DNA of 64,000 bases from an uncultured Eubacteriales bacterium (GTDB lineage Bacteria; Bacillota; Clostridia; Peptostreptococcales; Anaerovoracaceae), in assembly GCA_902786355.1 (NCBI GenBank), contig CADABZ010000001.1, positions 124,001-188,000 of the forward strand, given 5' to 3'. Below, piece after piece: positions 22,311 to 53,619 of this stretch (the first letter of the stretch is position 1; each line of letters starts with the position of its first letter). Made by a program: the position numbers and the translations under genes. The notes beneath the pieces were generated by a model. It ran no database searches. It was not told where the DNA came from and worked only from the letters and a program-made list of their open reading frames with translations.

Positions 22311-23459
22311 TTATTCCTTCGTATTGACTGCATCCATGAGGGCGTCTTCAGCAATACCGAGCGGAAGCATGCCCTTGCGTGCTCCTCTGCCGTACTTGCG
22401 TGCAGCAAATATGAAAGCATCAAAATTCTCTCTTGGTGTTCCGATCGGGACCTGGCATCCTGTTCCGAGAGTGTATCCATTCTCGGCTTCAGAACCTTTG
22501 ATGATGCACTGCTTGCATGTCTCGATGACATCATCGATAGTACCGTTGAGCATTACGTCTACAGGAGCGACATTTCCGACGAGTCCGAACACAGGACCCA
22601 TCTTGTCTCTTGCAGCCGAAAGATCTTCCATGTTGTCTACACTGAAGCTTGCGACCTTGAGCTTGAGCATGTCATCCCACAGTGGAGAAGTCTTGCCGCA
22701 GATGTGGATCCCAGGCTTCTTTCCGAGTGTCTGTGTGAGGCCTTCGATCAGGTATTCAAGATAAGGCTCTGAGAACTTCTTGTAGTTCCTCTTGCCGAGG
22801 ATGTCAGCACAGCTGATAGGATCGCAGATAGTGCATCCGCCACCGCCGAATTCGTCAGCGAACATCTCAGCATATGCAACAGTGTAATCTACAGTCCATT
22901 TCAGAAGGTCATTGAGCTTATCAGCATTCCTGACAGTATCTCTGAGGATCATCTCTACAGGTCTGATAAGAGAAGCATTGGTGAATGGTCCTGCGACAGG
23001 CATAGCAATGCCCATTTCCGGGAATGCTTCTTTCAGTTCGATACCTCTCTGAAGTACCGAAAGGAAGACCGGATTCTTCTTAGGGTTATCTTTCATCAGC
23101 TCCGGCAGCATAGACCAGTCTGTGAGAACAGGCTTGACAACTCTGTCTATACCTACTTCAGGAAAATATATCTCAGAGCCAACAGCCTGTGCCATTGTCC
23201 TCAGTCTCAGTCCTGAAGCGAGGCCTACGATGTTGAACTCCTCTTTTCTTCTCCGGATGACATCAATGTGGACTTTGACATCATTTCTCCACTGAGCTGT
23301 AGTATATCCGAAAATATTGGCCATAGCTTCCTCGTTGCTCTGGATAGAGAAAGGAATGTGGTCTACTGTTTCACCGGCAGCATATTTCTGCGCACGTTCA
23401 CCCTGAGACATTGTCTCGGGATATTTTTCCATTTCACGTTTCAGTTCTTCGTAAGTCAT
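22311..23459 (-). CDS. UroD-fold corrinoid methyltransferase D
   Basis: 382 residues, first gene of the operon. Zinc motif PGIHICGKT near residue 250 and third ligand in LGTGCQVPIGTP near residue 342 are intact. Extra cysteines occur in GGGGCTICDP. It pairs with homologue A by sequence and may be the donor-specific (MT I) partner; O-demethylase MT I enzymes of acetogens also belong to this superfamily as far as I recall. AAGGGG lies 6 bases before the ATG. The promoter with a palindromic operator-like site lies just upstream. Confidence 0.86.
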   Translation of the reverse strand: MTYEELKREMEKYPETMSQGERAQKYAAGETVDHIPFSIQSNEEAMANIFGYTTAQWRNDVKVHIDVIRRRKEEFNIVGLASGLRLRTMAQAVGSEIYFPEVGIDRVVKPVLTDWSMLPELMKDNPKKNPVFLSVLQRGIELKEAFPEMGIAMPVAGPFTNASLIRPVEMILRDTVRNADKLNDLLKWTVDYTVAYAEMFADEFGGGGCTICDPISCADILGKRNYKKFSEPYLEYLIEGLTQTLGKKPGIHICGKTSPLWDDMLKLKVASFSVDNMEDLSAARDKMGPVFGLVGNVAPVDVMLNGTIDDVIETCKQCIIKGSEAENGYTLGTGCQVPIGTPRENFDAFIFAARKYGRGARKGMLPLGIAEDALMDAVNTKE

Positions 23460-23489
23460 GATATCCCCTTATAACAACGTAAATAACTG

Positions 23490-23513
23490 TCATTGTCATT
23501 ATAACGGCAATGA
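23490..23513 (-). promoter_or_regulatory. 24-bp palindrome over the -10 box of the methyltransferase operon
   Basis: The site has outer arms TCATTG and CAATGA and a central TTATAA; 20 of 24 positions obey the symmetry. On the minus strand it contains TATAAT (23503-23498), a good -10 box, about 40 bases before the start codon, but there is no recognisable -35 box. This suggests a dimeric regulator binds here. A second TATAAT and a small inverted repeat (23526-23542) lie just upstream. Confidence 0.6.
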
Positions 23514-23581
23514 CCGACTGATTATTATAGGAATCCCCTATACTGAGCTTCCGATATTATTCATTATTGTGATACGAGAAG

Positions 23582-25081
23582 TCAGATATCAAGTTCTCTG
23601 ATCTCTTCTGCTATCTCGATATCTCTTTCGCTGAGAAGAAGCGTTTTGTTGTGTCTGTAGTAAGCTTCACAGCCATAAGTGCTGATAAAGCTGACACTTT
23701 CCGGATCCGCAGTGAGTTCTGTCAGTATGAGGAGCATCTCTTTTCCGTCACCCCAGCATTCTTCTGCAACTCTGAACAGGTTTTCAAGTTTTGAACCTGC
23801 TGCCGCTGCCTTTTTGTTATGCTGGCTGACTCTCATTGCATAGTCATCGCGGATGATGTCAAAATTATCTTCGTATGACTGGCGGTCTGAGATCTTTGCG
23901 GCGATATCATAGAGTATGCCGGCTGTCCGCAGAAGACGGTTTCCTTCTTCTTTTGTGACCGATCGGGCTCTGAGTCCGTCAGACCTTCTGCTTTCGATGT
24001 CTCTGATGATCATTTCCAGCGATCTTACAGGAGGCAGAGCTCTGTCACTTGCAGCATACTGTTTTATGCATGATCTGACAGACTCAAGCAGCCTTCTGTC
24101 TTCCATGCAGGCTCTGATATCTGCATCTGCACTTCCAAGCAGAAGCCCTATCAGAGTGTACACTTCATCGAATCCGGCACTTGCTATCCTCTCCTTCATC
24201 TCTTCTGTAAGATTGCCTGAGAGCATCTCGTCTACCGGATACTGAGTCCTGTATTTTCTGTACAGATCAAGATATACAGAGAATTCCCTTGCTATGTTCT
24301 CATTCTGAAGGTACTGGACAATAAGATCTTCATCAGCTTCGAGGCCGTTTCTGTCATAGAGTATGAGCATCTTGCTCAGGTCTTCCCAGCCTCTCGGTGT
24401 TACGATCGTCCTGCCTGAAACAGTTGTCTCGACAGAATAGAAGCGGTCACGTCTGCTTCCGAGAAAACTCATTACTGCAGGATGAACACCTGCCTGAAGC
24501 GCATACTGTCTCCATGCTTCAAAGTCAGGTTCGACATTTATCTTTTTGAGTCTGTCGAGTGTGACCACGTCAAACTCACGGGCTGACTCATTGTATTCCG
24601 GCGGATTGCCGGCAGTTACGATGATCCATCCGTCCGGTATGCGGTGTCCGCCGAAGACCTTATACTGCAGGAACTGCAGCATCAGCGGAGAGAGAGTCTC
24701 GGATACACAGTTGATCTCATCGAGGAAGAGTATTCCTTCTCTTACGCCGGTCTCCTCCATCAGCTCATATACAGAAGCGATTATCTCACTCATCGTATAT
24801 TCTGTAACATCGTATTCTCTGCCGCCGAAAGTCTTTCTTGATATAAACGGTAGTCCGATCGCACTCTGACGGGTATGATGAGTCATTGAGTACGTGATAA
24901 GGCCTATTCCGAGCTCTGAAGAGATCTGCTCCATTATTGCAGTCTTGCCTATTCCCGGAGGACCTATGAGGAGAAGCGGTCTCTGCTTATCCACAGGGAT
25001 CTCATAGTTTCCGAGATCGTCCTTAGTCAGATATGCTCTGACTGCGCTTTTGACCTGTTCCTTGGCTTTGCTGATATTCAT
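23582..25081 (-). CDS. MoxR-family AAA+ ATPase
   Basis: 499 residues with a MoxR/CbbQ-type AAA+ domain: Walker A GPPGIGKT at about 40-47, Walker B ILFLDEIN at about 117-124, and an AGNPPEYN sensor region. The C-terminal 230 residues are helical and unassigned. MoxR ATPases act with VWA-domain partners as chaperones for metal-cofactor or complex assembly. The start overlaps the stop of the VWA gene (ATGA) with GGAGC 8 bases upstream, so the two are coupled. It is the last gene of the cobalamin operon and lies directly upstream of the corrinoid methyltransferase promoter. Confidence 0.9.
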   Translation of the reverse strand: MNISKAKEQVKSAVRAYLTKDDLGNYEIPVDKQRPLLLIGPPGIGKTAIMEQISSELGIGLITYSMTHHTRQSAIGLPFISRKTFGGREYDVTEYTMSEIIASVYELMEETGVREGILFLDEINCVSETLSPLMLQFLQYKVFGGHRIPDGWIIVTAGNPPEYNESAREFDVVTLDRLKKINVEPDFEAWRQYALQAGVHPAVMSFLGSRRDRFYSVETTVSGRTIVTPRGWEDLSKMLILYDRNGLEADEDLIVQYLQNENIAREFSVYLDLYRKYRTQYPVDEMLSGNLTEEMKERIASAGFDEVYTLIGLLLGSADADIRACMEDRRLLESVRSCIKQYAASDRALPPVRSLEMIIRDIESRRSDGLRARSVTKEEGNRLLRTAGILYDIAAKISDRQSYEDNFDIIRDDYAMRVSQHNKKAAAAGSKLENLFRVAEECWGDGKEMLLILTELTADPESVSFISTYGCEAYYRHNKTLLLSERDIEIAEEIRELDI

Positions 25082-26421
25082 TCTAATTGCTCCTGTATAT
25101 CTTCATCTCTTAGAACTACTTTCATTGCCCACGCCGGAACATCCGGAGTGCTGTATCCGTCATCAAGAAAGATGAACGCAGTTCTGTATTCAGGCATTTT
25201 CTCAGGAAATGTCCCCAGGCCGTCGGTAAAATATAGAAGACCTCTCAGGTCCGAAAACTGTCCCTGCTTTATAAGGTCATCCACATATCTGAAGACGGGT
25301 CTGAAATCTGTTCCCCCGAGTCCGCGTATCTGCATATCTGCAAGATATCTGTCCATATCATCAGTATCGGTGATGACTGTATCTGACTGTATATCTGCAT
25401 CACACTGTATGATGTGAATATTCACTGAAGAAGCGAAAGAATCCTTCTCTTTCAGTATATTATATGTCTTCTGGATAAAAAGCCGTACCTTTTCACCGGC
25501 TACTGATCCTGATGTATCGATGGCTATAACGAAGTCATGGATCCGGCTGCTGTCTCTGTATTCGAGCGGTTCGATCAGAGGCATTCGGCCGTATTTTGAC
25601 AGGCCATAGGTGTAATAGATATAGTCAAACTCATCGTCTGATATCTTCATGTCCTCGTGAGAAACTGCGAACTGTCTGAGAAAAGCCGAATAATCATATC
25701 TCTCGCGGTTGACTGCACGGAGATTCTGGATCATTGAAGATGACTCGCGGCCTCTTACTCTTGCATACATCTCTATCTCCATCTGGACATGCTCTGCGAT
25801 CTCATTCCAGTCATATATTACGGACTGGTCAGGAAGATCCATTACAGAGGTCATACCTGCTGCCTGTCCGTGATCTGCAGGCACTTCATCTTCTCTTAAG
25901 TACCACAGGGAGTGATCATCGCAGAGGAAGATTTCTTTGAGTTCTTCAGTCCGGCGCTCATCTTCCGGCTCAGTCCTCAGATAAGCATAAATCTTCTCAG
26001 CTGTCAGGAAGCCGGTTTTCCGCCTCAGCTGCCTTGTTATATATTCCTGTCTGTTCCTATGGTCTGTATCAGTGCATACAAGGCCGAGCTCATTGATAAC
26101 TGCCTCCGAAGCTATGTCACATGAAAGATCCCACATCTCTCTGTCCACAGATCTTCCGGTAAAAGGATGATGGAAAACACAGTGAAGCACGGTGTGCAGA
26201 TATGCACGGTTGACGCTTTCTTTCGAAGCGGAATAAGCTCTGAGTATGTATACAGGATCGAAGAAAAGTGTCCGTCCGTGTGAAGCTATCGAGCCATCAT
26301 AAACAGCTCTGTCCTGAAAAGTCAGAGCTGTATCGAGATACCTCAGGTTGACAAGCAGTCTGTTCCTTGCGATATCAAGCACGTCATTGGCTAATTCTGT
26401 TATGCGTCCTTCATCAGCCAC
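25078..26421 (-). CDS. VWA-domain protein with degenerate metallopeptidase-like N-terminus (DUF2201-like)
   Basis: 447 residues. The C-terminal von Willebrand A domain keeps the MIDAS residues: IDTSGS (near 303), GGTDF and YFTDG. The N-terminal part contains HTVLHCVFHH, at the place where DUF2201 proteins have a zinc-protease-like motif; the catalytic Glu of HExxH is replaced by Thr, so protease activity is doubtful. The start is a GTG with GAGGT 10 bases upstream. It is paired with the MoxR ATPase. The arrangement recalls CobS/CobT of aerobic cobaltochelatase, but there is no CobN here. Confidence 0.85.
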   Translation of the reverse strand: MADEGRITELANDVLDIARNRLLVNLRYLDTALTFQDRAVYDGSIASHGRTLFFDPVYILRAYSASKESVNRAYLHTVLHCVFHHPFTGRSVDREMWDLSCDIASEAVINELGLVCTDTDHRNRQEYITRQLRRKTGFLTAEKIYAYLRTEPEDERRTEELKEIFLCDDHSLWYLREDEVPADHGQAAGMTSVMDLPDQSVIYDWNEIAEHVQMEIEMYARVRGRESSSMIQNLRAVNRERYDYSAFLRQFAVSHEDMKISDDEFDYIYYTYGLSKYGRMPLIEPLEYRDSSRIHDFVIAIDTSGSVAGEKVRLFIQKTYNILKEKDSFASSVNIHIIQCDADIQSDTVITDTDDMDRYLADMQIRGLGGTDFRPVFRYVDDLIKQGQFSDLRGLLYFTDGLGTFPEKMPEYRTAFIFLDDGYSTPDVPAWAMKVVLRDEDIQEQLE

Positions 26422-26427: not shown

Positions 26428-26883
26428 CTATACCTCTTTGAGAAGCTCACGGATCTTTGCCGATATCTCAGCCGCCTTCTGATGATCCTCGCCGCTCGCA
26501 GTGACACCTATGACGACAGAGTCTTTTCTGGCCAGGCCCGGGAAGAAGAAATCGCACAGAGTCTGGTCACTGGCGACATTGACAGTGATATTCCTCCTGC
26601 GGCACATTCCGGCGATCTTTATATCCGTTCCCTGATGTCCTGTATTGATCATTGCTATATCAGCACCGTCAAGGTCGGTCTCATCAAATCTCTTCCTGAG
26701 ATATGTGATATATCCGGCATTGGCAAGCTTGATGATCTCAGGTTCAGCCTCAGGCGACACGACTGTGATCAAGCCGGCAAATTCATACATGCTGATTATC
26801 CTCCGCACGGCTATCCTGCCGCCTCCGACAAAGAGCACATTCTTATCTGACATGTCTACAAACATTGGAAAATACAGACCCAT
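26428..26883 (-). CDS. Precorrin-2 dehydrogenase (SirC/CysG N-terminal-like)
   Basis: 151 residues, shorter than the usual 200 or so. The NAD-binding motif VGGGRIAVRR and the TVVSPEAEPEI strand identify the siroheme synthase N-terminal family, which oxidises precorrin-2 to sirohydrochlorin. The conserved stretch NVASDQTLCDFFFPGL contains the likely catalytic Asp. The helical C-terminal domain is cut to about 20 residues. GGAGG lies 4 bases before the ATG at 26883; a longer frame to 26961 lacks support. It supplies the substrate for CbiK in the same operon. hemA, its usual neighbour, is absent. Confidence 0.88.
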   Translation of the reverse strand: MGLYFPMFVDMSDKNVLFVGGGRIAVRRIISMYEFAGLITVVSPEAEPEIIKLANAGYITYLRKRFDETDLDGADIAMINTGHQGTDIKIAGMCRRRNITVNVASDQTLCDFFFPGLARKDSVVIGVTASGEDHQKAAEISAKIRELLKEV

Positions 26884-26908
26884 AGTTCCTCCGGTTCTGT
26901 TACTGATT

Positions 26909-27535
26909 CTAATCGTAATATTTTTTCTTGATAAAATGATTGAGCACGCCGCCGACGACAATTATCGCCAGAGCGATGTATATCACTTTCATGGCCGCTT
27001 GCTGCGTATCGATTATAGTCCTGCCGTTGTCATCAAGCTCGATCTTAAGAGCTCCTTCCGGCAGACTCGAAGCGAGAAAAGCGATATCGCGGTCATACCA
27101 TTTATCTTTTTTCTTGCTGTATGCGGCGCATGGTATCTCCAGATTGAGTGCCGGCACTTCGATCGTGAACTGGCCGTATCCTGTGGATTCATCTGCCCTG
27201 ATCCATTCAGACGGATCCGCAGCAGCCGCTTCTGCGGCGCTTCCGGGATATACGTATTTATAGCTTGTGCTCGATATGGTTATGACTGCGTGCATATCGC
27301 TTCCGGACTTAGTCAGCTCAGCATCAGTGATCCTGAAATACTGAGAGGTTGACAGTACTTTGGCCGGATAAGTGCCGTCTTCAATATCCATCGGGTATAC
27401 AGCAGTCATGTCATATATCAGTGTGCCTGATCCGCTCTTGTCACTGCTGCTTTGCTGCACTGCAAAAACTGTGCATCCGCACAGAATGATGAGCAGTATC
27501 GATATGAGACAGATAAGGCAGCGATGGTGCTTCAT
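26909..27535 (-). CDS. Membrane-anchored surface protein with a domain shared with 51051-51911
   Basis: 208 residues: N-terminal export signal with a possible lipobox (IILCGC), one extracellular domain (about 45-160) and a C-terminal membrane helix (VIYIALAIIVVGGVLNHFI) with a short basic tail. The domain aligns by eye with the first domain of the lipoprotein at 51051-51911: both have EDGTY, a PG-A--AA segment, a VPALxxE strand and KWYD. The fold resembles NEAT-type heme-binding domains in size and strand pattern, but this is a guess. It is likely part of a tetrapyrrole, cobamide or metal uptake system with the nearby transporter genes. AAAGGA precedes the start. Confidence 0.75.
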   Translation of the reverse strand: MKHHRCLICLISILLIILCGCTVFAVQQSSSDKSGSGTLIYDMTAVYPMDIEDGTYPAKVLSTSQYFRITDAELTKSGSDMHAVITISSTSYKYVYPGSAAEAAAADPSEWIRADESTGYGQFTIEVPALNLEIPCAAYSKKKDKWYDRDIAFLASSLPEGALKIELDDNGRTIIDTQQAAMKVIYIALAIIVVGGVLNHFIKKKYYD

Positions 27536-27556
27536 TGATATATATCCTTTACTGTA

Positions 27557-28288
27557 TTAGAGGTTTTTCTTCTTGTATATGAAGAATACTGATATTCCGC
27601 CGAGTATGACAAGATACGCCAGCAGTATGACTATGCCGGTCAGATCCGGTGATTCACCATATGAAATACTCCTGATCATTGCGCTTGCCTGGGAGAGCGG
27701 AAGTATCTCTATTATCTGGCGGAAACCGTCCGGCATCTCCTCTGTTGAGAAGAATGTATTACACAGAAATGACATAGGCATGATTATGTACGTATTGAAT
27801 CTCGGTGCATCGGAGTATGTCTTTGACAGAAACGACAGCACGAGAGCAAGCGTCGCGAAGACCATACCGTTGAGCAGCATGATCAGAAAGGAAAGTCCGT
27901 TGAATATAAGGTTATATCTGACAGGTATAGTGAGTATGAGTATTACAGCCGCAGCATACATGCCTCTCAGGCTCCCTCCTATCACCTGTCCGAGAATGAA
28001 CTGCCACAGAGGTGTCGGCGATACCATTACCTGATCAAGGGCCTTCTCATAAAGCCTCTGGACACTCATGTTCTGAGCTATGGCGCTGAAGCTTCCTGTC
28101 ATCGTGACCATTGCCACAAGACCCGGGACGAGAAAGAATATATAAGGCTGCCCGTGGGAAGTCGTCCTTATGCCAAGTCCGAACACTATAAGGTACATCA
28201 AAGGAGAGATCATCGCTGCTACGGTGATCTTGTAGAAATCCCTTCTGAATTCGACCCATTTTTCCCAGAGTACTGTTATAATGCCCAT
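27557..28288 (-). CDS. ABC-2 type transporter permease (DrrB-like)
   Basis: 243 residues with about six membrane helices, of the ABC-2 family that usually works in export. It begins with a cytoplasmic segment ending in EFRRDFYKITVAAMISP, and has the typical VSPTPLWQFILGQVIGG motif in the middle. It is the partner of the ATPase encoded directly upstream (8-bp gap). The substrate is unknown. Its place between cbiL and precorrin-2 dehydrogenase suggests a link with tetrapyrroles or cobalt. Confidence 0.88.
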   Translation of the reverse strand: MGIITVLWEKWVEFRRDFYKITVAAMISPLMYLIVFGLGIRTTSHGQPYIFFLVPGLVAMVTMTGSFSAIAQNMSVQRLYEKALDQVMVSPTPLWQFILGQVIGGSLRGMYAAAVILILTIPVRYNLIFNGLSFLIMLLNGMVFATLALVLSFLSKTYSDAPRFNTYIIMPMSFLCNTFFSTEEMPDGFRQIIEILPLSQASAMIRSISYGESPDLTGIVILLAYLVILGGISVFFIYKKKNL

Positions 28289-28295
28289 TCTTATT

Positions 28296-29132
28296 CTATG
28301 TGATCTTTCTGCCGGCGCACTCTACGAAAACATCCTCGAGTGTGGTAGCGCGAAGTGCTGCATCCGGACCGGCTGTCTCAAGATATCTTATGGCTTCCTC
28401 ACGTGAACCAAAATGTCTGCTGGTAAGCGACATCTCTCCTGTCTGTTCGACAGTGAACCTTCCGAGTTCATCGATGAGTGCCCGAGGAGTATCCAGCTTC
28501 TGAAGTCTGCCGCGGTTGATCATGGCCACTCTGTCGCAGAGAGCTTCTGCTTCTTCGATATAATGCGTGGTCAGTAGGATCGTCATGTCCCTGTCATTGA
28601 CCTGCCTCAGCAGGTTCCACATCTGACGCCTCGAAAGAGCATCCATTCCTGCGGTAGGTTCGTCCAGCAGGAGTATCTCAGGTTTTATGAGAAGAGCGCG
28701 GCAGATCATAAGTTTTCTCTTCATTCCGCCGGACAGATGCCTGACTGTGCGGCGATGGAAGTCAGATAAGCCTGCGAATTCGAAAAGCTCATCTGTTCTG
28801 CTTCTGATTTCCTTCTTCGGAAGAAAATAAAGGCGCCCCTGATATTCCATGACTTCATCCATTGTCATATCCTGGCGCATAGAGTATTCCTGAGTTATGA
28901 CGGCGAGCTTGCGTTTCTGTTCGGATGCCGCTCTTGTAAGCGGTTTCCCGTCAATAAATATCCCGCCTGATGTAGGAAGCAGCACAGTTGACAGCATGCT
29001 TATAGTAGTTGTCTTGCCTGCCCCGTTAGGTCCGAGCAGACCAAAAAACTCGCCGGTCTCTATCCTCAGAGACAGGTTGTCAACTGCAGTAAAATCGCCG
29101 AATTTCTTGGTAAGCTCACGAACTTCGATCAT
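28296..29132 (-). CDS. ABC transporter ATP-binding protein (DrrA-like)
   Basis: 278 residues with Walker A GPNGAGKTT, the signature LSGGMKRKL and Walker B LLLDEPTAGMD followed by the TTHYIEEAE switch histidine. The C-terminal 60 residues are typical of DrrA/CcmA-like exporters. It pairs with the ABC-2 permease just downstream. No CbiMNQO cobalt importer is seen in the operon, so this unit could take a related role, but its family normally exports. Confidence 0.92.
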   Translation of the reverse strand: MIEVRELTKKFGDFTAVDNLSLRIETGEFFGLLGPNGAGKTTTISMLSTVLLPTSGGIFIDGKPLTRAASEQKRKLAVITQEYSMRQDMTMDEVMEYQGRLYFLPKKEIRSRTDELFEFAGLSDFHRRTVRHLSGGMKRKLMICRALLIKPEILLLDEPTAGMDALSRRQMWNLLRQVNDRDMTILLTTHYIEEAEALCDRVAMINRGRLQKLDTPRALIDELGRFTVEQTGEMSLTSRHFGSREEAIRYLETAGPDAALRATTLEDVFVECAGRKIT

Positions 29133-29140
29133 ATAAGGCT

Positions 29141-29833
29141 TCAGTCTTTCCTGTGTTTAGCTACAAGGAGTGTCAGATAACCTGCGTCATCCGGTATCTC
29201 CTCGAGATCTCTGTATAAGTGTTCATTTTCCATGGTGCAGTTCTCTGCGCCCTGCACATCAAGGCCGCTTCTTCTGAGTATATCTTTGACATCTGCCATG
29301 TGGCTTGCAGATTTCATAAGCACATAATTGCCCGGTGATCTGAGATGCTCGTCATTGATATGAAGAGCAGGCAGTATGTGAAGAGGCTCATCCCACTCTG
29401 AGAGAGATATGCCAAGAGAAGCAGCAGCTCCGCAGAATGATGTGACACCGCTGACCAGCTCCACTTTATAGCCGTCCGCCTCAAGCAGATGCTGAATATA
29501 GCTGAAAGTGCAGTATACTGTCGGATCTCCGAGAGTAAGATAGATTACATTCTTTCCTGCGTCAAGATAGCTCTCTATGGTATCAGCTGCTTTGCGGTGA
29601 CTGATACTGATAGCTTCCCGGTCCATGAACATAGGCATAACGATGCTGATAAGCTCCTTGTCAGCAAGTTCAGGCACAGCAGCAGCGGCGATCTCATAAG
29701 CTTTTGTCTGCTGCGGGACCTTGCCGGGAAGTGCGATTATATCATTTTCACGTATAAGTCTGCATGCCTTCAGTGTCATAAGCTCCGGGTCGCCCGGCCC
29801 TACGCCCACTCCATAAGCTGTTCCTTTATTCAT
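29141..29833 (-). CDS. cbiL: Cobalt-precorrin-2 C20-methyltransferase
   Basis: 230 residues of the tetrapyrrole SAM-methyltransferase family (GVGVGPGDPELMTLKA at the start, TLGDPTVYCTF, and LVSGVTSFCGAAA). CbiL methylates C20 of cobalt-sirohydrochlorin, the first corrin-specific step. The start at 29833 has GGGGGA 5 bases upstream and overlaps the hemC-cobA-hemD stop by 8 bases. A longer frame to 29854 is unlikely. Confidence 0.94.
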   Translation of the reverse strand: MNKGTAYGVGVGPGDPELMTLKACRLIRENDIIALPGKVPQQTKAYEIAAAAVPELADKELISIVMPMFMDREAISISHRKAADTIESYLDAGKNVIYLTLGDPTVYCTFSYIQHLLEADGYKVELVSGVTSFCGAAASLGISLSEWDEPLHILPALHINDEHLRSPGNYVLMKSASHMADVKDILRRSGLDVQGAENCTMENEHLYRDLEEIPDDAGYLTLLVAKHRKD

Positions 29834-33271: not shown

Positions 33272-33333
33272 ACTCTCTTTCTCTGTTTTATATTGTTAAG
33301 CAAAAGGTCTTGTCAGATCCGGTTGCGGGATCT

Positions 33334-43980: not shown

Positions 43981-44013
43981 AAATTCTGTCCTTCCGGGAT
44001 CTTATCAGTAATC

Positions 44014-44826: not shown

Positions 44827-44828
44827 GT

Positions 44829-45329
44829 TTATCTCCTGCCGGCTGTCAGATCAGTGACCTTATCTGCCAGAATACTCAGTCTGTGATTGATCCTGTCCAT
44901 CGTCAGAGCGTACATTATGGTTTCAGAATCAAAATCATCTGTGATATCGAAATGATTGGTTACTATCACGGTATTTCTTACGCTCAGGGCAAGCCTGCTG
45001 ATATCTGAAACTATCTTCTCAGCGCACTTGTCTGCCGGCGTATGTCTTGCAAACATCTCATTGGCAGCCAGATTAGAAACACACTCAAGAAGGACCGTGC
45101 TGTCTTCAGGAAGAGAGATATCTCCCGCATCAAAAGGGACCTCGATCGTAGTAAAGCCCTTGCCTTCCCGCATACTGCGGTGTTTTGCGACACGCATCCT
45201 GCCTTCTTCACCATAAGGTATCATCGTGGCGATATAGTATCTGGTTGTATCTCCGGCTATCTCAGGAACGGTCTTTTCAGCAAGAGCCGACTTTCCTGAA
45301 TCAGGTGTGCCGATAATGAGGTGTATCAT
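44829..45329 (-). CDS. cobU: Adenosylcobinamide kinase/guanylyltransferase
   Basis: 166 residues. The P-loop is GTPDSGKSALAE at the N-terminus; the guanylylated histidine is in RVAKHRSMR near residue 50. LLECVSNLAANEMF and VIVTNHF are the remaining family motifs. It activates adenosylcobinamide with GDP. A little shorter than the E. coli-type enzyme (about 180). Confidence 0.93.
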   Translation of the reverse strand: MIHLIIGTPDSGKSALAEKTVPEIAGDTTRYYIATMIPYGEEGRMRVAKHRSMREGKGFTTIEVPFDAGDISLPEDSTVLLECVSNLAANEMFARHTPADKCAEKIVSDISRLALSVRNTVIVTNHFDITDDFDSETIMYALTMDRINHRLSILADKVTDLTAGRR

Positions 45330-45338
45330 AGTCTCTTA

Positions 45339-46436: not shown

Positions 46437-47914
46437 TTTGCCTCTTCAAGTATTCTGTATATCTTATCCATATCCAGCGATGAACGCAGGATATCTGCGA
46501 GTCTGTCGAATTCTTTTTCCCTGAATTCCCTGTGGTCAACTGCATCTCCGCCTTTATATGCAATGCCCTTGCGCTCAGCCAGTGTTCTGACAACTGCTTC
46601 GGCGATCTCACCGCGGTCGAAGAATCCGTGGATGTAAGTGCCGTAGATGTTATCTGAGCAGATGCCGGTGCCGTCTGACGTAAAATCTGTATACGAGTCT
46701 CCGCGCGGTGTCGTCACTCCCATATGTATCTCATATCCTTCAACAGTCATCCCGCTGAGACCGGAGAAGACCCCTGGTGCACCGCAGCAGGTGCCGGTGA
46801 ACTGCTCTGTCCGCTTGTCTCCGGCAAGTACTGTATCTGCAGGAAGGAGTCCGAGCCCTCTGATCTCGCCGCCGCCCTCGACATTATCAGGATCTGAGAT
46901 GCTGCATCCGAGCATCTGATAGCCTCCGCATATGCCGAATACCGGGATGCCCTTTCTGCTGCATTCGTTTACGGCTTCCTCAAAGCCTTTATCCCTGATC
47001 CATCTCAGATCGGCACTCGTGCTCTTGGAGCCCGGCAGTATCAGCATATCAGGTGTTCCGAGATCCTGTATATCCGAAATATACCTTACGGAGACCTGAG
47101 GGAACTGCTCGAATACGTCCATATCCGTAAAATTCGAGATCTTAGGGGTTTTTATGACTGCAATGTCTATCTCTCCTCTTCTCCTGGAAAAAAGCCTCTC
47201 AGAGAGAGAATCCTCATCCTCGACACGCACGTCCATATAAGGCACGACCCCTGCAACAGGCACTCCGCCTCTTTCTTCAAGCATCCTGATGCCGCTGTCA
47301 AGGAGACTGGCATCTCCGCGGAATTTGTTGATTATAAGGCCTTTGACTCTGTCCTTTTCCTGCGGCTCGAGAAGCATCAGTGTGCCAAGAAGCTGGGCAA
47401 AAACTCCGCCGCGGTCGATATCACCGACAAGCAGCACAGGTGCATCGAACATCTCTGCTATTCCCATGTTGACTATGTCGTTCTCCTTGAGATTGATCTC
47501 AGCCGGAGATCCCGCACCCTCGATCACGATTATATCTGCTACCTCTGAAAGCTTCGAAAAGGCTTCTTTTATTACCGGTATCAGCTCAGTCTTGAAGGCA
47601 AAATAATCTCTCGCCTTCATATTGCCGATCGACCTTCCGTTAACGATGACCTGAGAGCCTTCATCGTCAGTCGGCTTGAGAAGTATCGGATTCATGCAGA
47701 CCATCGGCTCTATGCCTGCGGCTTCTGCCTGAACGACCTGGGCTCTTCCCATCTCAAGGCCTTCCTTCGTAGCGAAGGAATTCAGAGCCATATTCTGTGA
47801 TTTGAACGGGGCGACTCTGTATCCGTCCTGCCTGAATATCCGGCACAGGCCTGCGGCAAGAAGGCTCTTGCCTGCATTGGACATAGTCCCCTGTATCATT
47901 ATAACCTTAGCCAT
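46433..47914 (-). CDS. cbiP: Adenosylcobyric acid synthase
   Basis: 493 residues. N-terminal ATPase-like domain ([32 protein letters not shown]) and C-terminal glutamine amidotransferase with the nucleophile in [10 protein letters not shown] and the catalytic His in the IHGFFD region. It amidates side chains b, d, e and g. The start overlaps the ABC ATPase stop (TAATG). Confidence 0.96.
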
Positions 47915-48732
47915 TATCTTTTTACCTGATCATCGCTTTCTGTATGTACTTCCGGATGTCTTGTGATGCTGCCGATAAAGCTTACATAAAGCTCTGTCAG
48001 CCTGCCGCGTTCCATCCCGTACAGTCTGCTGACAGCTTCATCGGTGAAGACTTCGTCCGGAGCTCCTGTCATCTCTATTCTTCCATCAGAGGAGATGCAT
48101 ATCACCCTGTCGGATATCATGTGAGCGAGCTCGAGCTCGTGCATAGACATGATGACTCCTATATCTCTGTCTCTGACAAGGTTTCTGAGAAGATCCAGAA
48201 ATTCCAGCTTGTGACGTATATCCAGATATGAAGTCGGCTCATCGAGTATCATTATCTCCGGTTCCTGGCTTATCGCTCTTGCAAGAAGCACCCTCTGCCT
48301 CTGCCCGTCGCTGATCTCGTGATAATCTCTGTCAGCGATCTCAGATACATGCACAAGATCCATCGATTCTCTTACGATCTGTCTGTCGTCCGAAGACAAA
48401 ATGCCGAGTCTTCCGGTATAAGGATATCTGCCAAGAGATACGACCTCCTCGCAGGTAATCCTTTCGCTCGACGCTTTTTCGGTAAGCATCACTGACTGCA
48501 TCCTTGCGATCTCATTGGACGAGTATGATCCGCGTTCTTTTTCACTTATGTAGATGACTCCTCCGACAGGTTCTAGCTGACCTGCTATCGTCTTGAGCAC
48601 AGTCGATTTGCCTGCACCGTTAGGTCCGATCAGTGTCACGATCTCGCCTTTTCTTATCTCCATATCCACGCCGGCAACTACGATCCTGCGTTCATACCCC
48701 GTATCGAGGTGCTCTGTTCTGATTATCGCCAT
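47914..48732 (-). CDS. ABC transporter ATP-binding protein, FecE/BtuD type
   Basis: 272 residues with Walker [10 protein letters not shown], signature [15 protein letters not shown] and Walker [12 protein letters not shown], followed by the switch region SMHELELA. It completes a FecCD-family importer with the next two genes. The riboswitch-controlled context supports cobamide or cobinamide uptake; siderophore or heme uptake cannot be excluded by sequence. Confidence 0.93.
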
Positions 48733-48736
48733 GCCG

Positions 48737-49753
48737 TCACCTTGCCTTCCTCTCGAGGAGCATGAATATTACGACAGGTGCGCCGAATACAGCGGTCATC
48801 GTGCTTATGCTCATCTCCGTAGGTGCGAAGAGGTTCCTGGCGAGCAGATCGCAGAACAGACAGAAAGCAGCTCCGCCAAGGAAGCACTGAGGCACCATGA
48901 CTATAGGACGTGAGGTTTTTGTCACTGATCTGATGATGTGAGGAACAGCAATTCCTACGAATGAGATCGGACCTGCAAATGCTGTTACCGTAGCAGACAG
49001 CAGGCTTGAAAGAGTGATGAGTCCTATCCTGAATGATCTGAGGTTGACGCCGACGCTTCTCGCATACTGCTCTCCCATCTGAAAAGCGGTCATAGGCTTG
49101 GAGAGCATAAAAGCAGCGATAACAGCAAGGCTGACTACGACAGTCAGTGTCCTCACGTTATCCCAGCTGACAGCCGAGAAGCTTCCCATAGACCAGTTGT
49201 GAAGATTGACTATATTGGAGTCATCAGCGAATGTCACAAGAAACTCAGTGACCGCAGAGCATATGTATCCAACCATCACTCCGCATACTATAAGGACAGA
49301 CATGCTCCGTATCCTGCGGGATATGATCAGTATGATCCCGGTCACTGCAACCGATCCGGCAAAAGCTGCTATGACCAGCATAAGAGAGCTGGTCATCAGT
49401 CCCGCGCGCAGGACGTATACCATCGTCAACGCGACGCAGAGTTTTGCGCCTGAAGAGATCCCCAGTATGTACGGACCTGCGATTGGATTGGCGAAAAAAG
49501 TCTGAAGAAGGAATCCGGATACAGAAAGAGCTCCTCCAAGAAATACAGCAGCCAGTATCCTCGGCATACGGATATCCCACACGATACGGCCGAATTTTGA
49601 AGCTGTCTCGTGCGAGAAAAGTATGCTCAGAGCTTCTCCTGCTGTCATGGAGGAACTTCCCATCAGAATATTGAGCATGATAAGAACGGCTAGGATCAGC
49701 GCAAGCGCTGCATATATGAGCCTTATCCTTATCGCTTCATTACTGACTTTCAC
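48737..49753 (-). CDS. ABC transporter permease, FecCD/BtuC family
   Basis: 338 residues with about ten membrane helices. Typical motifs are RMPRILAAVFLGGALSVSGFLLQTFFANPIAGPYILGISSG in pieces (RMPRILAAV, NPIAGPYILGIS) and GPISFVGIAVPHIIR near the C-terminus. The start is a GTG with GGAGA 8 bases upstream. It lies between the binding protein and the ATPase. Confidence 0.93.
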   Translation of the reverse strand: MKVSNEAIRIRLIYAALALILAVLIMLNILMGSSSMTAGEALSILFSHETASKFGRIVWDIRMPRILAAVFLGGALSVSGFLLQTFFANPIAGPYILGISSGAKLCVALTMVYVLRAGLMTSSLMLVIAAFAGSVAVTGIILIISRRIRSMSVLIVCGVMVGYICSAVTEFLVTFADDSNIVNLHNWSMGSFSAVSWDNVRTLTVVVSLAVIAAFMLSKPMTAFQMGEQYARSVGVNLRSFRIGLITLSSLLSATVTAFAGPISFVGIAVPHIIRSVTKTSRPIVMVPQCFLGGAAFCLFCDLLARNLFAPTEMSISTMTAVFGAPVVIFMLLERKAR

Positions 49754-49801
49754 GTGTGCTGTCTCCGTTACAGGGATATTATTGATAATACCGGTCTCAT
49801 A

Positions 49802-50965
49802 TTATCTGCTCAGAAGATGGAAATATTCCATGTCTTCATCAGAATCCGCTCCTGCGAATATCTTATTCATCTCAAGGGTCATGTCAGCAGCTCCCGTAGT
49901 CTTCTGGAAAGTGCTGGCATCTGTGCACCATACCCGGCCTTCTTTGACTGCAGCAAAGTCAGCGAAGCGGTCTGACATATCAGTCAGATCATCGATCGTT
50001 TCAAGATCGCCTTCAATGGTGCTGTTGTAGATGAGTATATCAGCATCTACAGCTTTATCATAGAACGCTTCCATCTGCATGTTCATAGTTGAAAGCGCGT
50101 TATCTTCGTCTTCTGTAATACCATCCAGCGCATATGTGCCGCCGGCGGTCTCTATCATCTTCGTTACATAGTCTCCCGGTTTTCTGACTACTACAGATCC
50201 GTTTGAATTGACAGAGAAGAATGCAACCGAAGGCGGTTCAGTTATCGAATCGGTATCGATGCTGCTTATCTTCTCTTCTGCCTCGCTGAAGTAAGCTTCT
50301 GCCTCAACTGTTTTGCCGAAAAGCAGGCCGTAAAGCTTGATCCATTCAAGACGTCCGAGCGGATCGGATTCATAGCTTGATCTCTCTACGAGAACCGGGA
50401 TCCCAACTTCCTCGATCTCTTCTTTGACCTGAGGGCTGTGATATATCATCGTGGACTCTATGGCAAGATCCACATCAGCTTCGAGAAGAGCCTCATAGTC
50501 AGGAGCACGGTATTTGCCTATATAACGTATTTTATCGCTTTCTACGAGCTTCTTTATCTTCTCTATTCCCCAGTCTGAAGCAGCTGTACTTGTCATCACG
50601 ACAGAGTCGAGCGCCCCTGCGGCATCTATAACATCCATCGCAGAGGATGCTGCATTGTATACCGAATGTACCGGTGCGCATATGACTGTCATCTCACCGA
50701 TCTCTTCATCCGGCAGCCATGCAGGAAGCTCATCAGAGCCTTCGATGACCAGGTATTTAAGACCATCCTCAATACTGACTACAGCAATACCGTCATCGTA
50801 ATAGTCCACATGGAACTGATCAGCATACTTAAGTTCCATGCTGCCCGTGCGATGTTCTTCGAGAACATTTTCGGCTTTCTCCTGCTTCTCATCACTGCTG
50901 CAGCCGGCAAGGAGCAGCGCGATGAGGATCGCTGATATCATCAGCAGTATCTTGCTTCTTTTCAT
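49802..50965 (-). CDS. ABC transporter substrate-binding lipoprotein (class III, BtuF-like)
   Basis: 387 residues. Signal peptide with lipobox LLAGC, Cys at 22. Two lobes of the periplasmic-binding class III fold follow, with APVHSVYNAASSAMDVIDAAG, PDYEALLEADVDLAIES and ERSSYESDPLGRLEWIKLYG. It should deliver cobamide or a related tetrapyrrole to the permease. No clear ribosome site is seen right before the ATG. An intercistronic hairpin lies upstream (51003-51035). Confidence 0.9.
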   Translation of the reverse strand: MKRSKILLMISAILIALLLAGCSSDEKQEKAENVLEEHRTGSMELKYADQFHVDYYDDGIAVVSIEDGLKYLVIEGSDELPAWLPDEEIGEMTVICAPVHSVYNAASSAMDVIDAAGALDSVVMTSTAASDWGIEKIKKLVESDKIRYIGKYRAPDYEALLEADVDLAIESTMIYHSPQVKEEIEEVGIPVLVERSSYESDPLGRLEWIKLYGLLFGKTVEAEAYFSEAEEKISSIDTDSITEPPSVAFFSVNSNGSVVVRKPGDYVTKMIETAGGTYALDGITEDEDNALSTMNMQMEAFYDKAVDADILIYNSTIEGDLETIDDLTDMSDRFADFAAVKEGRVWCTDASTFQKTTGAADMTLEMNKIFAGADSDEDMEYFHLLSR

Positions 50966-51002
50966 AAGACAGAAAAATATAAGTTGATTTGTTATAACAG
51001 CA

Positions 51003-51035
51003 CAGAGATCCCGCCGTCGTACAGCAGGATCTCTG
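51003..51035 (-). other. Intercistronic hairpin before the binding-protein gene
   Basis: CAGAGATCCTGC and GCGGGATCTCTG on the minus strand pair over 12 positions (one G-T) around a 9-base loop. There is no U-tract, so it is more likely an mRNA processing or stabilising element that raises binding-protein yield than a terminator. Confidence 0.6.
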
Positions 51036-51050
51036 CATTATGTAATTATA

Positions 51051-51911
51051 CTATTTTACCGATGAAGAATCGAATGTAAGTGTGTATTCGATCTCATGCG
51101 GCTCGCTCATAGCTGTTGTATCAGCAATGACAGTCATAGGCTTGTCGAAATAAAACACCGGTATCTCAAATACCGAATTCCCGTCTTCATTCACAGGAAG
51201 GTATTTCTCGCCGTCTACTATCATGTAATCGTAATGAGGGCTGCTCCATTCGATAACTGCAGTGCAGTTGTCCCCGCTGACTCTGATCACAGCCGGTGAA
51301 GAAACGGACGCTTTGCCTGTCCCTCCTTCGAGAGCAACATCGACTTTGTGTTCTCCGTCCTCAAGCTCAGGAGCTTCGGATGTGCCGGCAGACTCTTCAG
51401 CAGCAGGCTCCTCTGAACCCTCTGCCGCAGCATGAATGTCATCGCCTGGTACAGGATCTGAGACTACGACCTTGTGATCATACCATTTGCCCTTGGTCCC
51501 CAGAAGCGCCAGATCGAATTCCTCATCCAGTGCAGGAACAGGAACATCAAATCCGTACACTTCATCCTCGTAGCCATCGCTGTAGGTAACGGTATCTTCA
51601 GTCGGCTCGAGAAGCTCAGCTCCGTCCTTTGCCGCATCCTCGGCTGTGCCCGGGAAGAGGTTGACTATCTTCTTGGACTGAAGGCTGACATGTATCGTCA
51701 TCTTTCCGTCTTTGACAGTCAGTATTCCCTTATCATTATTGGCCTCGCTGACATGGAACATCGAGTTGTCGGTAGTGAATGTTGCAACATAAGTTCCATC
51801 CTCAATGCCCGGATCAGCAGGCTTCTCAGCACTGCCGCAGCCTGCTGCCAAGAGCAGCACAGCTGTCAGCAGAGCTGTTAATACTATTCTGGTGTATTTT
51901 GCTTTTTTCAT
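51051..51911 (-). CDS. Surface lipoprotein with two NEAT-like/unassigned domains
   Basis: 286 residues. Signal peptide and lipobox (LLLAAGC, Cys 25). Domain 1 (about 35-150) matches the protein at 26909-27535 (EDGTY, FPGTAEDAA, VPALDEE, KWYD). A Glu/Ala-rich linker follows, then domain 2 (about 185-286) with SSPHYDYMIVDGEKYLP and a DTTAMSEPHEIEYTL strand. The tyrosine-rich strand recalls heme-binding NEAT domains, but I cannot confirm it. Lying between a surface CbiK and the importer, it is a candidate tetrapyrrole-binding receptor. Confidence 0.78.
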   Translation of the reverse strand: MKKAKYTRIVLTALLTAVLLLAAGCGSAEKPADPGIEDGTYVATFTTDNSMFHVSEANNDKGILTVKDGKMTIHVSLQSKKIVNLFPGTAEDAAKDGAELLEPTEDTVTYSDGYEDEVYGFDVPVPALDEEFDLALLGTKGKWYDHKVVVSDPVPGDDIHAAAEGSEEPAAEESAGTSEAPELEDGEHKVDVALEGGTGKASVSSPAVIRVSGDNCTAVIEWSSPHYDYMIVDGEKYLPVNEDGNSVFEIPVFYFDKPMTVIADTTAMSEPHEIEYTLTFDSSSVK

Positions 51912-51914
51912 AGA

Positions 51915-53144
51915 TTACTGTGCCATTGCTTCAGCAGTGTGTGCTATGTAGATCTGCTGGATATCTGCTATGCGGCCAAGACCTTCGATCTGGCATGATA
52001 CATTCTCAGCACCCAGTCCTGCTCCTGTATCAACAGGTGCGTCAGCGCCTTCTACCTCGAACTCACCACCGTTGACGAATCCGTAGTACCAAGATCCCTC
52101 TTCGTCTCCGGCCATGTCGTTGTTTGCGTGATCACCTGCAACAACCATGAGAGGTCTCAGAATGACCTTAGTGTAGCCTGCATCCTCAAGAGCCTTCTTG
52201 ACTGCAGGGAATGCTGTATCTTCAGGCTTGCCTTCAACAGTTCCGATGAATACGTTCTCATATCCGAGCTGCTTCATCTGCTCCTGCATCTGGTCATAAG
52301 TTACGTTGGCTTCGTGTGAAGTTCCGTGTCCCATCAGGACGAATGCTGTTCCGTCTGCAGCAGCTGCCTCAAGAGAATCATAATCACTTGCAGCTACAGC
52401 CTCAGCGACAACAGCTTTTGCAGTAGCTTCCTTGTCAGCGTTGATAACAGTTGCATCCTCGCCTACTGATCCGAGAAGCGGTTCTGCGACCTTGACGGAC
52501 TCGAATTTATCTTTGAAGTTTTCGAGGGATGCATTGAACTCATCATACTCTGCACCATGCATCAGGTGTGTAGGCTGAACAACAAGGTTCTTTACACCGT
52601 TGTCAACAGCTCTCTGAAGAGCCTGATCTACGTTGTCGATCTTCTCTCCGTCACGTGCATAGATGTGGTTGATGATGATCTGTGCAGTAAATGCTCTTCT
52701 TACTGACCAGTCAGGATAAGCTTCCTGAAGCGCCTTTTCGATACCGCCGATATCAGCTGCACGGCTGTCGTTGAAAGATGTACCGAAGCTTACTACGAGG
52801 AGCTCATTTTCTCCAATCTCATCCTGATTGAGAGGATCATCCTTGGATGCATCTCCTGTATCTAGTCCGAAGTAATCAGGGCTTGCTTCCTCACCTTCGA
52901 CCTTCTGTTTCTGCTCGTCTGTAAGTGCATCCCATGCTGCCTTTGCAGCTTCACACTGAGCATAGGTATCATCAGTATATTCCTGTACATAGATAGCATC
53001 GATCAGTGCTGCACATTCTGCTGCCGGATCAGCTTCAGTCTTTGCTTCTTCGGTCTTCTCACCGCTGCCTGAACCGCAGCCGGCCAGAAGCGAGAACGAG
53101 AATATCATAGTGATTCCGAGTAACAGTGTTAAAAATTTCTTCAT
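51915..53144 (-). CDS. Lipoprotein-anchored CbiK-type metal chelatase
   Basis: 409 residues. Signal peptide with lipobox LLAGCGSG (Cys 23), then an acidic linker and small helical segment to about residue 110, then a full CbiK domain. That domain starts ELLVVSFGTSF and keeps the active-site histidines in VQPTHLMHG and GDHANNDMAG, plus VLMGHGTS. CbiK inserts cobalt into sirohydrochlorin; an exported version is known from Desulfovibrio. Here it should sit on the outside of the cell membrane. First gene after the riboswitch, with AAGGAG 9 bases before the ATG. Confidence 0.93.
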   Translation of the reverse strand: MKKFLTLLLGITMIFSFSLLAGCGSGSGEKTEEAKTEADPAAECAALIDAIYVQEYTDDTYAQCEAAKAAWDALTDEQKQKVEGEEASPDYFGLDTGDASKDDPLNQDEIGENELLVVSFGTSFNDSRAADIGGIEKALQEAYPDWSVRRAFTAQIIINHIYARDGEKIDNVDQALQRAVDNGVKNLVVQPTHLMHGAEYDEFNASLENFKDKFESVKVAEPLLGSVGEDATVINADKEATAKAVVAEAVAASDYDSLEAAAADGTAFVLMGHGTSHEANVTYDQMQEQMKQLGYENVFIGTVEGKPEDTAFPAVKKALEDAGYTKVILRPLMVVAGDHANNDMAGDEEGSWYYGFVNGGEFEVEGADAPVDTGAGLGAENVSCQIEGLGRIADIQQIYIAHTAEAMAQ

Positions 53145-53277: not shown

Positions 53278-53302
53278 CAGAAAACAAGGAACATTGTTCC
53301 TT
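53278..53302 (-). terminator. Candidate intrinsic terminator in the riboswitch expression platform
   Basis: AAGGAAC and GTTCCTT (53286-53302) form a perfect 7-bp stem with a 3-base loop, followed on the minus strand by GTTTTCTG. It lies about 85 bases after the aptamer and 134 bases before the first start codon. The stem is AT-rich, so it is a candidate only. Confidence 0.4.
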
Positions 53303-53387
53303 AAGACTGTACGACCAATTCCTCGTGATCCGGAAACTCTCCGCGGCGCCCTGCACTGCTTGCGGATCGCAGAGGGTTTCCTGTACA

Positions 53388-53560
53388 AAGCACCGGCAGG
53401 TCTCCTGGCTTAAGAACATAGCATGTAAGTCCGCCTTCCCGGGGTCGTTAAACTCCCAGTGACATAATGGGCTTACACGTTCTATCACAGTGACGGGATC
53501 GCGCAGGATTCTGACCTGCTTCCCTATTATCCCCGCAAAGCTGCAGGGCACCGGATGCTT
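53388..53560 (-). promoter_or_regulatory. Cobalamin riboswitch aptamer
   Basis: The minus strand carries the B12 box AGCCAGGAGACCTGCC (53410-53395), the core GGTCAGAATCC, GCGGGGATAATAGGGAA and GCCCATTATGTCACTGGGA. The 5' AAGCATCCGG and 3' CCGGTGCTT pair as P1 with one bulged T. It begins about 25 bases after the predicted transcription start and precedes the CbiK lipoprotein gene by about 240 bases, so it should repress the whole 29-gene operon when adenosyl- or methylcobalamin is plentiful. Confidence 0.96.
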
Positions 53561-53590
53561 CATGTTATTAATGAATTGCAGTGCTTAAAT

Positions 53591-53619
53591 ATTTTAACAC
53601 CGGTCATTTGCTGTAGCAA
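53591..53619 (-). promoter_or_regulatory. Promoter of the cobalamin operon
   Basis: Minus-strand TTGCTA (53619-53614) and TAAAAT (53596-53591) with a 17-base spacer, just downstream of the cytosolic cbiK gene and just upstream of the riboswitch. Confidence 0.75.

Follow-up and report, generated by a model that had tools for sequence, protein, structure and literature searches.

A derived mlp gene cluster behind a cobalamin operon in an uncultured Anaerovoracaceae bacterium and its probable link to selenium

The window analysed here is the whole stretch of 64,000 nucleotides at positions 124,001 to 188,000 of contig CADABZ010000001.1 (contig C1 of genome G000 in our numbering) from an uncultured Eubacteriales bacterium of the Anaerovoracaceae, whose draft genome of 2.5 Mb in 63 contigs is 95% complete. 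Our subject is a corrinoid methyl-transfer module of eight minus-strand genes that span positions 15172-23459 of the window in the order U1, corrinoid protein (CP), RACo, U2, leucine-rich repeat (LRR) protein, U3, DUF1638 and U4, where U1 to U4 are proteins of the UroD fold (Table 1). No divergent gene interrupts the module and its internal gaps are of 56 bp or less, within the single strand and the gaps of at most 2 kb that define an mlp gene cluster (MGC). A gap of 122 bp separates the start of the module from an AAA gene on the same strand, on the side of the cobalamin (B12) operon. The preliminary description of this DNA rightly saw that a corrinoid module follows the B12 operon on the same strand (it gave the gap as 123 bp); the range that it assigned to the locus, 22311-53619, takes in the B12 operon and only the first gene of the module.

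Table 1. Features of the window (positions and strands are those of the window) and exact operator sites in five genomes
Feature	Position	Strand	Evidence or context
U4, UroD-fold methyltransferase, own subclade beside Mlp2	15172..16278	-	PF01208 238.5 bits; H-C-C ligands
DUF1638 protein, putative RACo partner in corrinoid reactivation	16304..17008	-	PF07796 115.7 bits; P. inhibens genetics (PMC5764234, excerpt)
U3 = Mlp1, short UroD-fold protein, 307 aa	17014..17937	-	PF01208 63.8 bits; tree; C27/C244/C288
BspA-type LRR protein, C-terminal ankyrin-like part (by eye)	17897..18634	-	PF13306
U2 = Mlp3, UroD-fold methyltransferase	18634..19653	-	NF004889 386 bits > 244; tree; H240, C242, C316
RACo/Ram, ATP-dependent reductive activase of corrinoid protein	19675..21546	-	PF14574, PF17651, Fer2
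CP, corrinoid (methyl carrier) protein	21603..22259	-	PF02310 + PF02607; TIGR02370 209.6 bits, just under cut-off 215.3
U1, UroD-fold methyltransferase, Mlp2-related subclade	22311..23459	-	PF01208 154.7 bits; mtaA_cmuA 131 bits, below cut-off; tree; H-C-C ligands
Predicted module promoter	23498..23542	-	Palindrome 23526-23542 (TATAGG-N5-CCTATA) centred 30.5 bp before TATAAT 23498-23503
AAA ATPase (MoxR-like), pairs with vWA protein	23582..25081	-	PF00004/PF07728
vWA/DUF2201 protein	25078..26421	-	PF09967, PF13203
Cobalamin biosynthesis and uptake operon, CysG-like to CbiK	26428..53144	-	Pfam; largest internal gap 273 bp, 33271-33545
Cobalamin riboswitch	53378..53571	-	RF00174, 111 bits
Weak selenium-operator-like palindrome upstream of riboswitch, suggestive only	53634..53650	-	Score 11.8, joint fourth best in 64 kb
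Selenium-operator-like palindrome, 115 bp before DCCP	55068..55084	+	Best window site, 17.4; exact consensus match
DCCP, double-cubane-cluster reductase, selenium-associated	55199..56350	+	NF040772 503.6 bits > 350
Exact sites, G000			Before DCCP, ACT-HTH/LysR pair (LysR_Se/selD locus), yedF, Sec-lyase-like PLP gene
Exact site, G082			Before lysR
Exact sites, G093			Before MGC; before selA/selD
Exact sites, G076			Before selD (two); before PrdC/proline racemase
Exact sites, G135			Before yedE; before yedF

The draft holds five URO-D matches, the four module proteins and a UroD-B12 fusion protein on contig C31. U2 passes the subfamily model for methylcobalamin:coenzyme M methyltransferases, and U1, U3 and U4 match the same group of models under the cut-offs. 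A scan for the U2 family in one genome per species (84,980 species) left 80 named loci and met at least 495 relatives among at least 588 stretches; the closest named records for U2, among the matches listed, are 96% identical and come from gut or rumen genomes labelled 'Mogibacterium sp.' and 'uncultured Clostridiales'. The loci of Clostridium drakei (L110) and C. carboxidivorans (L112) have the order CobW-like, U3-like, UroD, CP, U2-like, RACo, which agrees with that of the C. ljungdahlii mlp gene cluster (Kountz & Balskus 2023, PMC10418091), where C. drakei is also named as an MGC carrier; this paper, PMC5322559, PMC5764234, PMC11097638 and PMC12478193 serve here as sources in excerpt. Gene order served to carry the Mlp names over from the C. 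ljungdahlii description; on that match U3 is Mlp1 and U2 is Mlp3. A tree of 97 rows places U2 with the Mlp3 proteins of C. drakei and C. carboxidivorans (support 99) and U3, on a stem of 2.2 changes per column, with the Mlp1 of C. drakei, the first UroD gene of its MGC (100). U1 and U4 form two subclades beside Mlp2 (100 each); a constrained-tree test rejected a single clade of U4 with Mlp2 (p 0.00055) and did not reject one of U1 with Mlp2 (p 0.098). The CP is 68% identical to the corrinoid protein of the C. drakei MGC. A strict Mlp2 is present in three close relatives (L053, L055 and L067), after DUF1638 and before an NhaC-like gene, with other genes between in L055 and L067. With orthologues of Mlp1 and Mlp3, paralogues on the Mlp2 side and no strict Mlp2, the module counts as an MGC on the general criteria and, within type 1, as a derived form. 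The preliminary description had suggested that the system may use an undescribed substrate; the arrangement is that of the published cluster. Its further suggestion, that UroD-fold enzymes act as both partners, has held up: this is a real corrinoid methyl-transfer module whose enzymes on the donor and acceptor sides are likely all of the UroD fold.

Residues H240, C242 and C316 of U2 align with positions in structure 4ay7 that we take to be the zinc ligands of MtaA. This histidine-cysteine-cysteine (H-C-C) set is conserved in all 82 Mlp3 rows, in 25 of 26 Mlp2 rows, in all 33 rows of the U1 group and in 13 of 14 of the U4 group, and occurs in 46 of 63 further UroD rows of mixed kinds. Not one of the 67 U3/Mlp1 rows has it complete: the histidine is found in one, the middle cysteine in all 67 and the third ligand in none. 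In the U3 family, sampled as the 67 rows together with further best matches of U3, all 82 rows carry C27, C244 (the middle ligand position) and C288. On these alignments U3 does not appear to be a zinc methyltransferase of the usual kind and carries a three-cysteine signature instead. The earlier count of four UroD homologues is right, with one of them lacking the zinc site. H-C-C is regarded as a ligand set of the sulfur and selenium type, and Mlp ligands are given as H-C-C except in several Mlp1 proteins (PMC10418091); our sample extends the exception to the entire Mlp1 clade. Mlp1 has hitherto been grouped with the zinc methyltransferases, and this distinct signature, fully conserved in the present sample, needs to be understood before reaction schemes are drawn. 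U3-like proteins of 25-38% identity were also seen without an adjacent U2 in other genomes of the family (L041-L045 and L047), so U3 may have a role wider than the MGC.

The genome has the selenocysteine machinery that characterises the selenium group of type 1 MGCs: a SelD with an in-frame TGA, a tRNA-Sec (69.6 bits against a cut-off of 47) and, named by eye, SelA- and SelB-like genes. The LysR regulator encoded beside selD passes the model NF040786, 'selenium metabolism-associated' (308.5 against 250 bits). DCCP, which lies in the window, adjoins U4 in three related loci (L055, L059 and L060), and its link with selenium is stated in PMC10418091. There, too, the Mlp2 of C. ljungdahlii is reported to methylate selenide using methylcobalamin, and an SdmABC-like operon of Methanococcus maripaludis goes up on selenium depletion (PMC11097638). 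LysR_Se, YedE, YedF and DUF3343 were defined as selenium-related in PMC5322559.

Co-transcription with the B12 operon is not supported as the meaning of the adjacency: the gap itself contains a conserved palindrome and a TATAAT box, and read-through from the riboswitch alone is not needed. In close relatives the palindrome before U1 is centred about 29.5 bp before the TATAAT box (TAAATT in two), and 12 of 13 upstream regions reach at least eight consensus matches, L068 falling below. A symmetrised matrix was made from the MGC promoter sites of nine relatives; the window, L063 (whose site does not fit the matrix, at 3.4) and a duplicate were left out, the sites of L065 and L067 being identical. 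Seven sites in the window score 11 or more, against 2.2 +/- 1.5 in 40 simulated windows; the best precedes DCCP and the second and third best fall inside genes. Family loci totalling 333,937 bases, which had been retrieved for their MGC, methionine or selenium genes, contain 12 sites that score at least 13 (the lowest 13.7); the expectation for 13.5 or more is 1.6 +/- 1.0. Eight of the 12 stand upstream of lysR, selD, selA, DCCP or MGC genes, three fall within genes and one overlaps the annotated vWA start in L039. Outside the genus, where genes were counted if their upstream gap was 100 bp or more, a site scoring at least 11 precedes 28 of 83 MGC core genes and 44 of 318 other genes (p 6e-5; at thresholds of 12, 13 and 14, p is 2e-4, 2e-4 and 0.015). 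A general promoter scan stayed at chance level (28 against 27.5 expected), and that scan alone says nothing. Crp/Fnr, at first considered as the regulator of the palindrome, was dropped once good sites had turned up beside LysR_Se and further selenium genes.

An exact consensus, TATWGANNNNNTCWATA (TATWGA-N5-TCWATA), chosen after the matrix matches were known, was then searched for in whole genomes. Of the genomes searched, six combine tRNA-Sec, SelD and a LysR_Se homologue (G000, G082, G135, G093, G076 and G008); they contain 6, 3, 4, 3, 4 and 1 exact sites, 21 altogether, against 1, 0, 0, 0, 1 and 0, or 2, for the reversed pattern. Twelve of the 21 precede selenium or MGC genes by no more than 350 bp (Table 1), and one more stands 116 bp before cbiD in a cobalamin gene set of G076. 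Seven of the twelve were already known from the matrix scan (DCCP, the lysR sites of G000 and G082, both G093 sites and both selD sites); the 14 new sites include five by selenium genes and the one by cbiD. Two rounds of family assignment covered ten proteins each: YedF (164.7 bits, cut-off 110), YedE (528, cut-off 200) and PrdC (625, cut-off 490) pass, CbiD and a Se/S carrier were also named, and the Sec-lyase-like PLP gene scores 407 bits where the SclA cut-off is 525, and 432 where that of a cysteine desulfurase family is 377. In four comparison genomes, G020 (SelD present, tRNA-Sec not above the cut-off) and G088, G030 and G004 (SelD not above the cut-off), none of the 19 sites looked at, of 24 exact ones, lies by selenium, MGC or B12 genes (one judged by eye, 18 labelled by BLAST); a PrdC-like match (31%) in G020 is 1,033 bp from an exact site. 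The sole exact site of G024 precedes a UroD-like gene, and G051 and G006 had none. Contigs C5, C20, C21, C25 and C35 of G004 carry recurring TATAGAATAATTCTATA-like palindromes, several paired about 230 bp apart, which in this genome without SelD above the cut-off are probably a repeated element.

The shared motif suggests that the MGC, and perhaps the B12 supply, are tied to selenium control. We propose the operator palindrome as the cis-site of the LysR_Se regulator, which would be its binder; no cis-site for LysR_Se turned up in a literature search or in the excerpt of PMC5322559. Several observations weigh against these ideas. No strict Mlp2 orthologue is among the five URO-D matches of the draft. 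The site before the window's own U1 is a weak match to the matrix (9.8, rank 10 in the window), and the best site in the 40 simulated windows, at 20.1, exceeds the 17.4 of the DCCP site, so a single high-scoring site proves little. DCCP genes outside the genus are not enriched in sites (2 of 11), and p values are optimistic because the rows are related. No selenium, MGC or B12 gene follows eight of the 21 exact sites: three of these fall within genes, and the others precede a DUF3793 gene, a hydrogenase set or a 340-aa gene, an ABC permease, a rhodanese-like lipoprotein and a permease in G008 (several named by eye). The last is the sole exact site of a genome with both MGC and LysR; the hydrogenase site, on contig C17 of the window's own genome, adjoins a NuoE/NuoF/[FeFe]-hydrogenase-like set in which no connection with selenium was apparent. 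At the lysR/selD locus of G135 the best site scores 11.9. Mlp3 (E <= 1e-50) is found in 10 of 148 family genomes, and SelD in six of these ten and in 43 of the 138 others (p 0.067); all five family genomes whose Mlp3 is at least 47% identical have SelD (p 0.0035), in a split made afterwards.

As to where the methyl groups might go, searches of the draft found no match to the pterin-binding methyltransferase domain PF00809 (positive in 13 of 14 control genomes searched in the same way), the MetE C-terminal domain PF01717 (10 of 14), MTHFR PF02219 (11 of 14) or Prismane/CODH PF03063 (5 of 14). The MGC definition excludes a tetrahydrofolate (H4folate) methylase within 20 kb, and PF00809 is missing from the whole draft; the preliminary description was thus correct that no H4folate methyltransferase lies near the module, a point on which profile searches of the module region agree. 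Growth on methyl groups by the folate route is therefore unlikely, and the earlier idea that the organism lives partly on demethylation finds no backing in this 95%-complete draft. The methyl group may go to homocysteine or a different thiol. Contig C31 carries one stand-alone homocysteine methyltransferase (PF02574), some 900 bp away from the UroD-B12 fusion, and in G082 the two genes overlap in one operon (L170). On C31 (L036) the order is UroD-B12 fusion (5355-7148, minus strand), DUF2284 (7323-7883, minus) and homocysteine methyltransferase (8051-9310, plus). A second RACo joins the pair in G076 (by Pfam) and, by eye, in G093 and G004. It is possible that this set is a pterin-free methionine synthase.

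With a probability of roughly 0.7, we read the module as an MGC that recovers selenium, perhaps sulfur, from methylated small molecules. The reading draws on gene content, MGC orthology, zinc ligands, the selenium machinery of the genome, the shared operator-like sites and the lack of a folate methyl gene match in the draft, and from these we infer the substrate, the direction of transfer, the acceptor and the binding of LysR_Se. U4, U1 or both, as H-C-C zinc enzymes from the Mlp2/SdmC side of the family, would bind a methyl-selenide or methyl-sulfide and pass the methyl group to the Co(I) of the corrinoid protein, releasing selenide for SelD. Another enzyme, probably U2, would move the methyl group from the corrinoid protein to a thiol that may be homocysteine. 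RACo and DUF1638 would bring Co(II) back to Co(I); in Phaeobacter, B12-dependent methionine synthesis requires a DUF1638 protein and a RamA-like protein (PMC5764234), and in Ruegeria both are more abundant on N-osmolytes (PMC12478193). The selenium LysR encoded beside selD would probably control transcription at the gap before U1, with DCCP and perhaps the B12 operon in the same regulon. If so, the role and timing of these widespread corrinoid clusters of gut anaerobes become testable through a defined operator, a named regulator and a predicted response to selenium starvation. The kind of system is already known, as the published MGC; new here are a predicted MGC promoter with a palindrome shared with selenium genes, the three-cysteine signature of Mlp1 and the link with a vWA-AAA-LRR trio. 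A bolder scheme, which we offer tentatively and expect is rather unlikely to hold as a whole, is that selenium status acts through the LysR_Se operator TATWGA-N5-TCWATA to couple B12 synthesis to a methyl-selenide corrinoid system, that U3/Mlp1 is a new kind of UroD-fold protein in which the zinc site was traded for a three-cysteine site (a handler of metal, Fe-S or selenium), and that the trio is its maturase.

The chief competitor of selenium recovery is the salvage of methyl-sulfur compounds and methionine, in which UroD enzymes would demethylate methylthio compounds derived from methylthioadenosine (MTA) and send the methyl group through the corrinoid protein to homocysteine, giving methionine without folate. 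We give it a low weight, though a real one, because sulfur and selenium chemistry share the ligand set and transporters of the MetIQ type recur. MetI-like (15 loci), MetQ-like (11) and NhaC-type (16) genes are found near the named and family loci, as are CobW-type GTPases (28), with neighbour families taken from protein clusters and one representative of each tested. A class II aldolase-like gene and a divergent DeoR-like regulator (by eye) upstream of U1 in L062 (408-1070 and 1385-2161) and, between AAA and U1, in L063 (4330-4989 and 5291-6070) hint at MTA salvage, and the draft pairs its single stand-alone homocysteine methyltransferase with no MetE, MTHFR or pterin-domain match. The promoter motif, however, points to selenium genes, and the four family genomes with Mlp3 and no SelD above the cut-off (G006, G024, G030 and G051) have more distant Mlp3 proteins, of 41-44% identity. 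The methionine and selenium explanations are not mutually exclusive.

A demethylase of methoxyaromatics, betaines or methylamines that feeds one-carbon metabolism is very improbable. Corrinoid protein, activase and UroD-fold enzymes also make up O-demethylases, and CdmB is a chloromethane methyltransferase of the UroD superfamily; the H-C-C ligands and the orthology with MGCs nevertheless argue against such a role, and classic methylotrophy is rejected because the draft, at 95% completeness, shows neither a folate nor a CODH sink. Among possible substrate methyltransferases elsewhere in the genome, the searches covered the UroD and pterin families. The first methyltransferases of O-demethylases (MT I: OdmB, VdmB and MtvB) have carboxylate zinc ligands or no zinc and a pterin-binding MT II partner (PMC10418091, with remarks on zinc in PMC13222342), whereas U1, U2 and U4 are H-C-C proteins and the draft offers no PF00809 partner. 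That the UroD proteins are decarboxylases of the heme pathway is already refuted by the scores: all four match PF01208, and U1, U2 and U4 match the hemE model at 43-77 bits, far below its cut-off of 303, U3 having no match. Their matches to the MtaA/CmuA models are stronger, three have the zinc ligands, and a corrinoid protein and its activase adjoin. The preliminary description would have yielded had all four grouped with true HemE; by profile scores none is HemE, and U1, U2 and U4 are MtaA/CmuA-like.

Selenium recovery by a derived MGC can also be set beside known systems. With the type 1 MGC of C. ljungdahlii and C. drakei (PMC10418091) the module shares Mlp1 (U3), Mlp3 (U2), corrinoid protein and Ram on one strand without an H4folate methylase, H-C-C methyltransferases, selenium machinery in the genome and a nearby DCCP. 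It differs in having two Mlp2-side paralogues (U1 and U4) and no strict Mlp2, in the added DUF1638, LRR and AAA-vWA genes, in its position behind a B12 operon and in the proposed operator motif. SdmABC of Methanococcus voltae and M. maripaludis, compared by description (PMC10418091, PMC11097638), is likewise a selenium-linked combination of corrinoid protein and UroD-type methyltransferases; it is archaeal and its use of dimethylselenide was demonstrated by genetics, whereas the module is known from its genes. The coenzyme M methyltransferases MtaA and MtbA (4ay7) have the fold family and the H-C-C zinc site in common with U2, whose scores nonetheless stay below the cut-offs, at 204 bits for MtaA (cut-off 400) and 195 for MtbA (cut-off 600). 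The LysR of this genome resembles the LysR_Se/HrsM regulators (PMC5322559; NF040786) in passing their model and adjoining selD; the palindromic operator is proposed only here, no motif being named in the excerpt of that paper.

Seven close relatives (L053, L054, L055, L060, L064, L065 and L067) have the complete order vWA-AAA-U1-CP-RACo-U2-LRR-U3-DUF1638, a recurrence that is more than chance. AAA and vWA genes accompany the MGC in 11 of the 80 named loci and LRR genes in 15, the latter all close relatives; many other loci end within 10 kb. The vWA-AAA pair (23582-26421 in the window) and an LRR gene are also found with the MGC, in a different order, in G076, which belongs to another genus (L039, 10272-14089). 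The trio thus travels with the MGC in two genera, and AAA and vWA probably belong to the module and not to the B12 operon because both adjoin the MGC in that other genus. The trio might be a maturation system. For an antiphage role of the AAA-vWA pair, PADLOC gave weak matches to AAA models only.

The B12 operon is a near-complete anaerobic one, with CbiK, BtuFCD, CbiP, CobT/U/S, CobC, CbiB, CobD, CbiC/D/G/J, TP methylases, CobB-like, HemB, HemCD and CysG-like proteins. The 29 genes once counted in it are reached if a second CbiK upstream of the riboswitch is included; from the CbiK that begins at 53144 to the AAA gene at 23582 there are 28, and the last two, AAA and vWA, are probably the module's. 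The operon may be a supply line under the riboswitch. The cbiD site in G076 and the weak palindrome at 53634 would suggest that selenium may control it as well. CbiK-type cobalt chelatases flank the riboswitch (51915-53144 and 53643-54506), the first with an N-terminal extension. An ABC-2 permease and ATPase pair lies inside the operon (27557-29132) and is kept in close relatives.

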